Below are positions 25,169-59,207 of a DNA stretch of 64,000 bases, piece after piece (the stretch's first letter is position 1; the number at the start of each line of letters is the position of its first letter). The notes under the pieces were generated by a model, which saw only the letters and a list, made by a program, of their open reading frames with translations, did not search any database and was not told the DNA's origin. Source of the DNA: Gloeobacter kilaueensis JS1 (GTDB lineage: Bacteria; Cyanobacteriota; Cyanobacteriia; Gloeobacterales; Gloeobacteraceae); assembly GCF_000484535.1 (NCBI RefSeq), contig NC_022600.1:3534001-3598000 (forward strand), in the 5' to 3' direction. The position numbers and the translations under genes are program-made.

Positions 25169-25603
25169 ATGAACAAAGCTTTCCGGCCACTCCTGACACT
25201 GCTACTGGTCTTTGCAGCAATTACCGGTGCGCAGGCCCACGACCTCAAGGCCAACCGCACCGTCGGCGCGCTGATGCACATTCAGCCCGACGACAACCCC
25301 CAGGCGGGCTCCGCCACCGTCACCTGGTTCGGCCTGGTCAAGCGCGGCGGTGAACCGGTCCCCCTCAAGGACTGCGACTGCAACCTCGCCATCTACAGCG
25401 GCAGCAAAGCCGCCGGGGCTGCCCTTTTAACGCCGGGGCTGCGCGAGGGCAAAGTCGAAGGCGAAGTCGGCAACAAGGACCGTCTGCTGGCCGATGTCAC
25501 CTTCCCAAAAGCCGGACCCTATACCCTGGTCCTCTCCGGCAAACCAAAAGGCACCGCCAGCTTCAAACCCTTCAAATTCCAGTGGCTCGTGCGGGCCACC
25601 TGA
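25169..25603 (+). CDS. Secreted cyanobacterial protein with N-terminal His after cleavage
   Basis: This 144-residue protein has a signal peptide (FRPLLTLLLVFAAITGAQA) whose predicted cleavage leaves His-Asp as the mature N-terminus. The mature part is a beta-sandwich-like domain: VGALMHIQPDDNPQAG, TVTWFGLVKRGGEPVPLKDC and KAGPYTLVLSGKPKG, with one Cys-x-Cys (DCDCN). Similar proteins are familiar from cyanobacteria but have no function known to me. The His-first layout and MxH motif recall periplasmic copper-binding proteins. The seven-base gap after the SOD-like gene indicates co-transcription and supports a copper or redox role by inference. Confidence 0.7.
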   Translation: MNKAFRPLLTLLLVFAAITGAQAHDLKANRTVGALMHIQPDDNPQAGSATVTWFGLVKRGGEPVPLKDCDCNLAIYSGSKAAGAALLTPGLREGKVEGEVGNKDRLLADVTFPKAGPYTLVLSGKPKGTASFKPFKFQWLVRAT

Positions 25604-25695
25604 GCACTGCCCAGCGCTTGCCCTGTGCCTGCGGACTGCGATTACTGGTGTGCGGGGTTCGCAACCTCATCTTTCGCCTCCAGCACCCGAAGTCT

Positions 25696-25968
25696 GAGGT
25701 TCCGAAGCTGAAACTTGGGGTTCCAAACCCGGAACTTGAGGTTCTGAACCTGAAACTTGGGGTTCCGAACCCGAAGGATGAGGTCTGGAACCTGAAACTT
25801 GAGGTTCGGAACCTGAAAGATGGGGTTCCGAAGCTGAAACTTGAGGTTCCGAACCCGGAACTTGAGGTCTGGAACCTGAAAGATGAGGTTCCGAACTTGG
25901 AAGATGGGGTTCGGAACCCGGAACTTGAGGTTCAGAGCCTGAAACTTGAGGTCTGGAACCTGAAAATT
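25696..25968 (-). repeat. Tandem 21-bp repeat array, 13 units, 3' of a Uma2 gene
   Basis: Thirteen contiguous units of exactly 21 bases fill 25696-25968. Each contains a version of the near-palindrome GGTTCNGAACC, followed on the plus strand by variants of TGAAACTT or GGAAGAT. Units differ by substitutions only, never in length. The array starts 12 bases after the stop of the Uma2 gene (25981) when read in that gene's direction. It has no spacers, so it is not CRISPR. It stays open in several frames because 21 is a multiple of three, but it lies outside any convincing gene. The second array at 58851-59207 has the same unit and the same orientation to its Uma2 gene. Confidence 0.95.
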
Positions 25969-25980
25969 GATGCGGGCAGC

Positions 25981-26703
25981 TCAGGCCAGTTGGTCTGGAT
26001 CGATGCCCTGTGCTCTTAGAAGGGCGGCGAGTTGTTCTGCCCGCTGCCGCTGCTGCTCTAGTTGGACCGTCAGTTGCTCGGTCCGTTGCCGCTCTTTTTC
26101 TTCTGGTGTCGGATGGCGCTTGCCCGATTGGTCGTACCAGTACAGCCACTCCCGACGCCAACCCTGATACTCCCCTTCATCCAAACCAATACCCAGACCC
26201 AGACCCTCTAGCCAAAAAGGCGCAGCGCCTGCTAGCCGTTCGTACTGGCCATCGATCAGTTCGTATACCTCCAGCACCTGACGCTTGCGACGACCCTGCG
26301 GGTTGTAAATCACGTAGTAGCGAATTCCCAGATGCTCGTACTCGCGCAGCTTCTCTTCGTACTCATCCCGGTAGGTCTTAGAAACCAGTTCCAGCACCAG
26401 TACTGGCATCACCCGTTCTTCCCACAACACATAGCTGAGCCTACCGTTCGGATCGCTCAGGCGCGGTACATTCAAAGCCAAAAAAGCATCGGGCACGATC
26501 GCCTTGTAGGGTTCGTGCGGATAGACATACATGCCCATATCTATCCCCAAAAACCAGTCATTGCGCTGGTCCCATAACGAGGCCAGGATCGTCTTGAGCA
26601 GGCCAGGAAGCGTGTCCTGTAGTTCGTTATCCACAGGGGTATCGTCGGAGTCGGGCAACTCGCGGGAAGAGGGCAGACGCAGCGAAGGATCGAACTGGAG
26701 CAT
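25981..26703 (-). CDS. Uma2-family (DUF820) endonuclease-like protein with C-terminal coiled coil
   Basis: The 240-residue protein belongs to the cyanobacterial Uma2 family, which has a PD-(D/E)xK nuclease-like fold. Visible elements are IVPDAFLALNVP (acidic residue), MPVLVLELVSKTYRDEYEEK (E-x-V/S-K-like core) and EKLREYEHLGIRYYVIYNP. The C-terminal 50 residues are a Glu/Gln/Arg-rich coiled coil ending AALLRAQGIDPDQLA, a typical tail in this family. Cellular function is not established; many copies per genome are usual. The ATG at 26703 is used. A 21-bp repeat array follows immediately, and a trypco2-like fragment lies just upstream on the same strand. Confidence 0.88.
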   Translation of the reverse strand: MLQFDPSLRLPSSRELPDSDDTPVDNELQDTLPGLLKTILASLWDQRNDWFLGIDMGMYVYPHEPYKAIVPDAFLALNVPRLSDPNGRLSYVLWEERVMPVLVLELVSKTYRDEYEEKLREYEHLGIRYYVIYNPQGRRKRQVLEVYELIDGQYERLAGAAPFWLEGLGLGIGLDEGEYQGWRREWLYWYDQSGKRHPTPEEKERQRTEQLTVQLEQQRQRAEQLAALLRAQGIDPDQLA

Positions 26704-27255: not shown

Positions 27256-28113
27256 ATGTCTTTCTTACCCAGCCCACCGAGCTACTGGGATGTCCCTGCC
27301 AAGTCGCGCTACCGCTCTGGACGACGGCAGAGGTGGTTGAGTGTATCTATCGGTGTGGGTTGGCTTTTGAGCACAATGCTGCTGCCACTGGATACAGAGG
27401 CGTTACGCGCTGAGGCACAGGTAGTCACGCCAACCAGAGGTGCGGGCTTCGTCATCATCGGCAGCCTGATGTTCGATGAATCCGGCAACTCTGTCAGTGA
27501 TGCGGGCGATGTCAATGGCGACGGACTCGCCGATGTGATCGTCGGAGCTTTTACAGCCGCCCCGAATGGTCAATCCTCTGCTGGTCGGAGCTACGTGGTC
27601 TTCGGCAAGCACAGTCACCTACCAGTAGCGCTATCGGTCATAGAAAGTGGTAGCAGCCCAGACGGTTTTGTCATCAACGGCAGCAATGAAGGCGATGCCT
27701 CCGGTTTGTCTGTCAGTGGTGCGGGCGATGTCAACGGTGATGGACTCGCCGATGTGATCGTCGGAGCTTTTACAGCCGCCCCAAATGCGAAAGTCAACGC
27801 TGGTCGTAGCTATGTGGTCTTCGGCAAGCGCAAGCGCCAGCCTGTGGAACTATCGGCAATAGAGAGTGGTAGCAGCCCAGACGGCTTTGTTATCAACGGC
27901 AGCAATGGACAAGATCTATCCGGCCAATCTGTCAGTGGTGCAGGCGATATCAACGGTGATGGACTCGCCGATGTGATAGTCGGGGCTCCCGGTGCCTATG
28001 GCAATGGTCTTCAAGGTGCTGCTGGTCGTAGTTATGTGGTCTTCGGCAAGCGCAGCATCCAGCCAGTGGAGCTTGCAAACCTGGAGACGGCCAGGCCATC
28101 GCCGTCTCCCTAG
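27256..28113 (+). CDS. Secreted FG-GAP repeat (integrin-alpha-like) protein, probably truncated
   Basis: This 285-residue protein starts at the ATG at 27256, preceded by AGGAG. After a hydrophobic export segment (LSVSIGVGWLLSTMLLP) it has three FG-GAP repeats of about 65 residues, each with a calcium-loop motif of type DVNGDGLADVIVGA and a block ending AGRSYVVFGK. The third uses DINGDGLADVIVGAPGAYG. Full FG-GAP propellers usually have about seven blades; here the frame ends abruptly after the third (LANLETARPSPSP), just before a Uma2 remnant, so the gene is probably 3'-truncated. Likely role: secreted Ca2+-binding or adhesion protein. Confidence 0.75.
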   Translation: MSFLPSPPSYWDVPAKSRYRSGRRQRWLSVSIGVGWLLSTMLLPLDTEALRAEAQVVTPTRGAGFVIIGSLMFDESGNSVSDAGDVNGDGLADVIVGAFTAAPNGQSSAGRSYVVFGKHSHLPVALSVIESGSSPDGFVINGSNEGDASGLSVSGAGDVNGDGLADVIVGAFTAAPNAKVNAGRSYVVFGKRKRQPVELSAIESGSSPDGFVINGSNGQDLSGQSVSGAGDINGDGLADVIVGAPGAYGNGLQGAAGRSYVVFGKRSIQPVELANLETARPSPSP

Positions 28114-58166: not shown

Positions 58167-58745
58167 ATGACGGCTGTGGCCCTAAACGTGCGTCCTCTTG
58201 AACTCACCCATGAACTGTTCACTGCCCTGTGTCGCTCCAATCCGGACCTGCGGTTGGAGCGCAGCCCACGGGGAGAATTGATCGTCATGGCTCCAGCCGG
58301 AAGCAATAGCGGCAGACGCAACGCCCGCCTGAACCATCGCCTCCTCGACTGGGCTGACAGGGACAGAACGGGTGTCGTCTTCGATTCCTCGACGGGTTTC
58401 ACCCTGCCCAACGGGGCGATTCGCTCCCCCGATGCTGCCTGGATCCGCCGGGAACGATGGCAGGCACTGAGCCTTGAACAGCAGGAAGGATTTGCACCGC
58501 TCAGCCCAGACTTTGTAATCGAGCTGCGTTCAGCCAGCGACGACCTCAACACCCTGCAGCTGAAGATGGAAGAATACCTGGCCAATGGGGTGCAACTGGG
58601 CTGGCTCATTGACCCACAGGCACGGCGAGTCGAAATCTACCGACCTGGACACCCGGTGCAGCGCCTGGAAAACCCGGCCCTGCTCAGTGCCGAACTTCTG
58701 CCGGGCTGGCAGCTGGATGTACAGGAAATCTTTGACCTTCAGTGA
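58167..58745 (+). CDS. Uma2-family (DUF820) endonuclease-like protein
   Basis: The 192-residue protein is a standard Uma2 member: LELTHELFTALCRSNPDLRL, RSPRGELIVMAPAGSNSGRR, NGAIRSPDAAWIRRERW (catalytic-type Asp), PDFVIELRSASDDLNTLQLK (Glu and downstream Lys) and WLIDPQARRVEIYRPG. The PD-(D/E)xK residues look intact. It lacks the coiled-coil tail of the copy at 25981-26703. It is followed 105 bases later by a 21-bp repeat array. Cellular function is unknown for the family. Confidence 0.9.
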   Translation: MTAVALNVRPLELTHELFTALCRSNPDLRLERSPRGELIVMAPAGSNSGRRNARLNHRLLDWADRDRTGVVFDSSTGFTLPNGAIRSPDAAWIRRERWQALSLEQQEGFAPLSPDFVIELRSASDDLNTLQLKMEEYLANGVQLGWLIDPQARRVEIYRPGHPVQRLENPALLSAELLPGWQLDVQEIFDLQ

Positions 58746-58850
58746 GGCTGAGCTGTCCACACTGGGGCACGTTGTTGTGATTTGGTAGAGGCACCGATGC
58801 TTTCCGGTACTCAAGCCCGGAGCCTGACTGTTCAAGACTCCGGGCTCGGC

Positions 58851-59207
58851 TTTGGGGTTTTGAACCTCACCTTTCAGGTTCTGGACGCGAAACTTCAGGT
58901 TCCGAACCTCAAGTTCCGGGTTCCGAACCCCATCTTTCTGGTTCTGAACCTCGAACTTCGGGTTGCGAACCTCAAGTTTTGGGTTTTGAGCCTCGACTTT
59001 CCGGTTCGCAACCTCGAACTTCGGGTTCAAAGTCTCAAGTTCGGGGTTCTGGACCTCAAGCTTCGGGTTCCAAACCCCATCTTTCCAGATCTGGACCTCA
59101 AGCTTCGGGTTCGGAACCTCATCTTTCAGGTTCTGGACTCGGAGGTTGTGTCTTGCAACCCCAGAGTTGCGGTTCAGAACCTCAAACCTCGGATTTCAGA
59201 CTCGAAG
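58851..59207 (+). repeat. Tandem 21-bp repeat array, 17 units, 3' of a Uma2 gene
   Basis: Seventeen contiguous units of exactly 21 bases cover 58851-59207; the last three are degenerate. Each contains a version of the near-palindrome GGTTCNGAACC, with CTTCG or TTTCA before it and TCAAG or CCATC after it. The unit and its direction relative to the upstream Uma2 gene match the array at 25696-25968. All units keep the 21-base length, so several frames stay open, giving heptapeptides such as VPNLKFR, but no start signal supports a gene. Confidence 0.95.

Follow-up and report, generated by a model that had tools for sequence, protein, structure and literature searches.

In bacteria from at least four phyla, a gene for a small helical protein lies beside a tandem array of phased palindromic units that keep a fixed 21-bp period and change fast in sequence and copy number, a combination that looks like an unnamed protein-DNA system. 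The arrays are non-coding, they are also dispersed as gene-less copies, and they turn over in place. On balance, we favour a reading in which gene and array would form a two-part module, the array being its DNA component, with dimers of the protein, here called A2, binding the dyads on one face of the DNA. Two of the gene-less arrays lie in the window, a stretch of 64,000 nucleotides from the chromosome of Gloeobacter kilaueensis JS1 (NC_022600.1, positions 3,534,001 to 3,598,000); positions without a prefix are those of the window, and the prefix G000 marks the whole genome.

Palindrome arrays of Gloeobacter kilaueensis JS1

Array A (25693..25968, minus strand, read in the orientation of the upstream Uma2 gene) comprises 13 regular 21-bp units with the core GGTTCNGAACC, and two decayed units extend its tail to about 25656. 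The core recurs at exactly 21 bp twelve times running, and Tandem Repeats Finder placed the array at 25695-25970 with a period of 21, 13.1 copies and 0% indels. The short palindromic units every 21 bases described in the first-pass annotation are therefore real, forming 13 contiguous units with no indel. Array boundaries were set with Tandem Repeats Finder together with a simple script for segmentation.

The genome (4,724,791 bases) holds three arrays of the GGTTC type. Array B (58851..59186, plus strand, in the region 58850-59200) is gene-less and consists of 14 regular 21-bp units with a decayed tail, and array C (G000:3422526-3422788), on the same chromosome outside the window, adjoins the A2 partner gene. 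All three share the unit and the period, and each is oriented in the same way with respect to the gene upstream of it. Their unit is built of a conserved dyad core of 11 bp, in which the central base is free, plus 10 bp of spacer, and its symmetry is broken by a C at -2 and a C at 12, so that the orientation of an array stays readable. The dimer pattern matched 34 times per strand genome-wide and the same pattern read backwards not once, which argues that the array is not a chance product. Arrays A and C have an exact 50-bp stretch in common and are 85% identical over 209 ungapped bp, and B can be aligned with C from just past the upstream stop codon through the head and the array; the three arrays are thus homologous. 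A hairpin, GCCCGGAG...CTCCGGGC, lies between the upstream Uma2 gene and array B (58815..58845, plus strand). Its second copy, the only other in the genome, stands in the gap that separates array C from the partner gene, at the same position of the head; neither is followed by a T run.

The partner gene (G000:3422902-3423375, minus strand) encodes 158 amino acids and is present in a single copy, beside array C. It is 137 kb from array A, and 137-170 kb from the gene-less pair A and B. Array A has the dyad units at 21 bp, and an adjacent A2 gene is absent at A and B alike. Judged by their sequences, arrays A and B are gene-less copies of the module's DNA half, whose partner gene stands beside array C.

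The neighbours of array A are a Uma2-family gene (25981..26703, minus strand; Pfam PF05685, 4.5e-16), with its stop codon about 12 bp from the array, and a convergent gene for a protein of 144 amino acids without a confident family (25169..25603, plus strand). No cas-like genes were found among the identified neighbours. A second Uma2 gene (58167..58745, plus strand; G000:3592212-3592724, E 1.5e-45) lies directly upstream of the head of array B. Uma2 had been suggested in the first-pass annotation as the binding partner, a proposal that was not borne out: of 112 array or partner-gene loci elsewhere, four have a Uma2-like gene nearby, and another protein family is the constant partner. Array B was the sole array of the palindrome type among 30 Uma2 loci examined in G. 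kilaueensis, and on the strength of these 30 and 112 loci Uma2 was rejected as a general partner. In other Gloeobacter, the site downstream of the 144-residue gene has neither a Uma2 gene nor an array. For arrays A and B, adjacency to Uma2 is probably incidental.

Both gene-less arrays stand directly behind a Uma2 stop codon, and 66 Uma2 genes make up about 1.5% of the genes of G. kilaueensis (4,508 in total; PMC3806779). For two intergenic sites drawn at random, the probability that both would adjoin Uma2 is about 0.001, a rough, post hoc estimate for a pattern that is not repeated elsewhere. Some Uma2 genes (loci L026, L038 and L047) have 21-bp tandem repeats of their own, e.g. GCTCCGCCCGCGCCCGTTCCT, that resemble coding heptad repeats; these look like C-terminal coiled-coil coding sequence, unrelated to the palindrome arrays. 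Other coding repeats of this genome are 219-bp tandem repeats in an open frame of the window (27480-27987; GDVNGDGLADVIVGA), belonging to an FG-GAP-like repeat protein, and 126-bp repeats in a gene for a CHAT-like and tetratricopeptide-repeat protein of 1214 amino acids (L049:10514-14158) that adjoins the array protein gene.

Association of the arrays with the A2 protein family

Among 257 billion bases, 33 stretches contained the exact dimer GGTTCNGAACC-N10-GGTTCNGAACC, against a chance expectation estimated at about 0.2 for a palindromic pattern with 20 fixed bases. Many of the matches were long 21-bp arrays with other spacers, in Flavobacterium, Kaistella, Hymenobacter, Ralstonia, Acidobacteriota and Chitinophagaceae. 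An all-against-all comparison of array neighbours yielded the A2 family, an uncharacterised helical protein of about 160 amino acids that adjoins arrays in all of these groups and, at array C, in Gloeobacter. The module of gene and array is distributed patchily over the phyla concerned. Of 14 other array genomes, 13 yielded the A2 protein, as did G. kilaueensis; five Gloeobacterales relatives have neither the protein nor GGTTC arrays.

In array-carrying genomes, with periods from 17 to 26 compared, 21 scored best locally at 30 of 30 A2 loci, a set biased by the choice of genomes for their arrays; at about a dozen of these loci the array is not of the GGTTC type. A less biased test was based on cyanobacteria picked by the A2 protein alone, which was present in 15 of 292 genomes. 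A 21-bp array lay within 600 bp at 23 of the 30 cyanobacterial loci (22 of 29 when G. kilaueensis's own is left aside). Unrelated control flanks had one at 2 of 37, namely array B and what appears to be a coding heptad repeat inside a Uma2 gene, and the background in array-rich genomes was 8 of 106 control windows. Among Flavobacteriaceae, the protein was found in 4 of 149 genomes, with a clear downstream array at three of five new loci. A minority of A2 homologues lack a clear array, and all these surveys are samples of genomes. No third conserved neighbour gene was found; contexts were shared locally.

A viral origin of the arrays was rejected: IMG/VR did not contain the array dimer, and A2 relatives were not found in viral contigs or phages. 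Likewise, blastn of the array against plasmids and phages gave no match, and the one plasmid homologue of A2 has no array. One Ralstonia array has three C4 antisense RNAs and an isrK RNA for neighbours (L057:6879-7922), a combination known from phage immunity regions, and a Flavobacterium locus with a gene-linked array carries two Flavo-1 RNAs (L080:377-456 and 680-759). The open-licence literature in PubMed Central gave no account of such arrays or of the gene-array pair, and an earlier description elsewhere is possible; the genome paper mentions CRISPR as the only repeats (PMC3806779).

Searches of Pfam (with 29 members), NCBIfam, PHROGs and PADLOC gave no match over cut-off for the A2 family, the PDB contained no noteworthy match, and family searches recognised no DNA-binding domain in the protein. 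AlphaFold models of two distant members (pLDDT 82.3 and 82.0) are all-helical and mutually consistent, with five helices, one of about 50 residues, and a disordered tail. The best fold matches of the first model (Foldseek E 2.4, VIA Z 4.8) are in the range of unrelated helical bundles, which does not by itself imply a new fold. The G. kilaueensis protein has a calculated pI of 6.4 and is not strongly basic.

Period, symmetry and turnover

In the gene-linked family, 474 of 483 steps between units measured 21 bp, eight 22 bp and one 20 bp; steps of 19 or 23 bp never occurred. This steadiness, seen at the level of sequence, fits helical phasing. Arrays contain about 5 to 25 units, of types that include GGTTCNGAACC, GTCTCNGAGAC, CCTCNGAGG, ACGTCNNNGACGT and CTCATTAATGAG; the sequence turns over fast, and period and dyad are kept.

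A period of 21 bp could also be a coding heptad repeat, with seven residues per unit such as LEVRNLK or SGSEPQV. Arrays A, B and C can each be read without a stop in three frames, and the frame in array A gives a weak Pfam beta-roll match (2.4e-6) that is below the curated cut-off. Against this, 22-bp steps break the frames, none of the frames is open in 6 of 23 arrays, the homologous heads of B and C enter their arrays in different frames, and arrays often lie beyond a terminator. The arrays are not coding, and we rejected the heptad repeat, on its frames and the 22-bp steps, as highly improbable. The suggestion in the first-pass annotation of protein sites rather than coding has accordingly held up, since the 21-bp spacing, sometimes 22, suits phasing and breaks the reading frame, and several relatives lack an open frame.

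Mutations had also been thought to preserve the pairing type between half-sites. In the core of the G. kilaueensis arrays they do not: the five core pairs of 40 units from arrays A to C included no compensatory double change, and 241 Watson-Crick pairs were observed where 240.3 were expected (z 0.18, p 0.46). The pair just outside the core (-1 with 11, the GGGTTC/GAACCC type) leans towards pairing, with 22 against 17.6 expected (p about 0.08), and in array A alone with 11 against 7.5 (p 0.046). The strongest dependence between columns was that of the adjacent spacer positions 14 and 15, which are not paired. Across the 45 gene-linked arrays of the wider family, on the other hand, compensatory changes exceeded chance with a z of 7.0, which is an upper guide because units that are related do not count as independent; with the partner shifted by 1 to 3 columns, z ranged from -5.3 to +2.6. 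The lack of an excess, named in the first-pass annotation as the outcome that would refute its claim, thus holds within G. kilaueensis and does not extend to the family. In 31 of 49 arrays, palindromicity was above that of column-shuffled versions at p<0.05.

Since the array sequence turns over fast, the main rival to protein binding is a satellite kept symmetric by mutation alone, in which slippage and unequal exchange expand the units, template-switch correction maintains their symmetry, and the protein is unrelated or merely makes or tolerates the array. Fast turnover beside a conserved protein would be in line with such a satellite. So would the shifts in unit number: one orthologous site has about 12 units in one species and three decayed ones in a relative, which indicates that arrays grow or shrink in place, and higher-order periods of 42, 63 and 84 bp reveal duplication of unit groups. 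Yet the same 21-bp period is found with unrelated unit sequences in several phyla, with one protein family alongside, and mutation alone leaves that company unexplained; and the step gained a base eight times, lost one once and never changed by more, unlike free indel drift. We regard the satellite as unlikely.

Divergence of protein and array was correlated (Mantel r 0.41, 0 of 2000 permutations). The proteins of loci L127 and L133 are 84% identical and their arrays almost unrelated (7-mer sharing 0.09), which is odd for strict sequence recognition by the protein.

The array lies downstream of the A2 gene at 41 of 49 loci, and upstream in Ralstonia and a few cyanobacteria. A simple scan found an intrinsic terminator between gene and array at 12 of the 41 downstream loci (ten of the 12 in Bacteroidota) and none after the array at any of them. 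In many loci, the arrays are outside the transcript of the gene, and a terminator so often placed before the array argues that the latter works as DNA and not as part of that mRNA. These positions bear on the idea of an RNA-level element, in which hairpins of a transcribed array would be targets of the protein or would regulate the gene upstream, with a loose parallel in the repeat RNA of type III toxin-antitoxin systems. The mostly downstream position would suit it, as would loci at which the array begins about 20 bp or less past the stop codon, a strong predicted RNA fold (z -9.5) and a slight excess of G.T over A.C mismatches (161 vs 125). However, such a fold score is expected from any palindrome array, and the minimum-energy fold joins units that are far apart and does not give each unit its own hairpin; the near balance of G.T and A.C gives little sign of selection on a sense RNA. 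Nor do the 12 terminators and the upstream arrays agree with it, the rigid period has no RNA reason, and the array has no Rfam match. An RNA element is, in our judgement, improbable, and the string of hairpins in the transcript that had been proposed earlier is not supported, given the terminators, the weak G.T excess and the predicted fold.

Near-identical blocks of gene and array occur twice per genome in different surroundings (L173/L175, L162/L167 and L120/L126), and gene-less arrays reach dozens of copies in three related genomes (one cyanobacterial genus, one array type), where they are intergenic and without a fixed orientation to genes. Gene and array might therefore be a transposable or recombining cassette with the gene-less arrays as its non-autonomous forms, as REP sequences are for RAYT transposases. 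The repeated blocks, the homology of B and C from the stop codon onward and the surplus of gene-less arrays over genes would all fit mobile-element ends. By contrast, the A2 protein matches no transposase or recombinase family, neither target duplications nor terminal repeats were seen by eye at block ends, and at the one site compared the relative holds a short decayed array and not an empty site. We consider the cassette quite improbable.

Proposed function and known systems

In the protein-binding module that we favour, A2 dimers would bind each dyad, and with units two helical turns apart all dimers would sit on one face, touching one another and building a cooperative patch on the DNA. 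The gene-less arrays A and B would give the protein of G000:3422902-3423375 additional sites at which to dock. Such a patch may serve nucleoid organisation, gene insulation or selfish maintenance, and we lean towards a chromosomal or selfish DNA-organising role. More speculatively, and with considerable doubt, the module could represent a new class of chromosomal element in which a helical protein reads 21-bp dyad geometry over fixed sequence and polymerises on phased arrays, and the arrays spread and diverge like satellites under a bacterial counterpart of centromere drive. If the protein binds the arrays, the pair would serve as a simple model, both for the phased assembly of nucleoprotein and for bacterial satellite-like DNA, and natural protein-array pairs would be ready for the study of how specificity evolves.

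CRISPR loci resemble the arrays in their tandem palindromic repeats and partly variable spacers. Array A differs in its 21-bp period, its 11-bp core, 10-bp spacers that recur between units and arrays, and the lack of cas genes, and its position coincides with none of the CRISPR regions for which the genome paper's text states coordinates (PMC3806779).

The REP/BIME elements with their RAYT proteins are similar in that intergenic palindromes are dispersed and one or few genes encode the presumed handling protein. The A2 module, in contrast, has tandem series of 5-25 units at 21 bp and a helical protein that is not a Y1 transposase: 29 members are without a Pfam match over cut-off, and the all-helical models are unlike the HUH fold.

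Type III toxin-antitoxin systems such as ToxIN also have a short gene by a tandem-repeat array with a terminator between the two. ToxI repeats lie upstream of the toxin gene and are about 36 nt long, whereas the A2 arrays are DNA-phased, are downstream at 41 of 49 loci and often come after the gene's terminator; the A2 protein had no match over cut-off in Pfam, NCBIfam or PADLOC to the ToxN/AbiQ, CptN and TenpN families.

ParB-parS, ParR-parC and iteron-type clusters consist of phased, repeated and often dyad-symmetric sites close to the gene that encodes a small partner protein, and additional sites occur elsewhere on the chromosome. The A2 module is like them in its repeated, phased dyad sites beside a partner gene and in having more sites elsewhere. 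It differs in that A2 has no ParB, ParR, Rep or helix-turn-helix family match over cut-off in Pfam or NCBIfam, and in that its arrays are fixed in period and differ in sequence between close paralogues.
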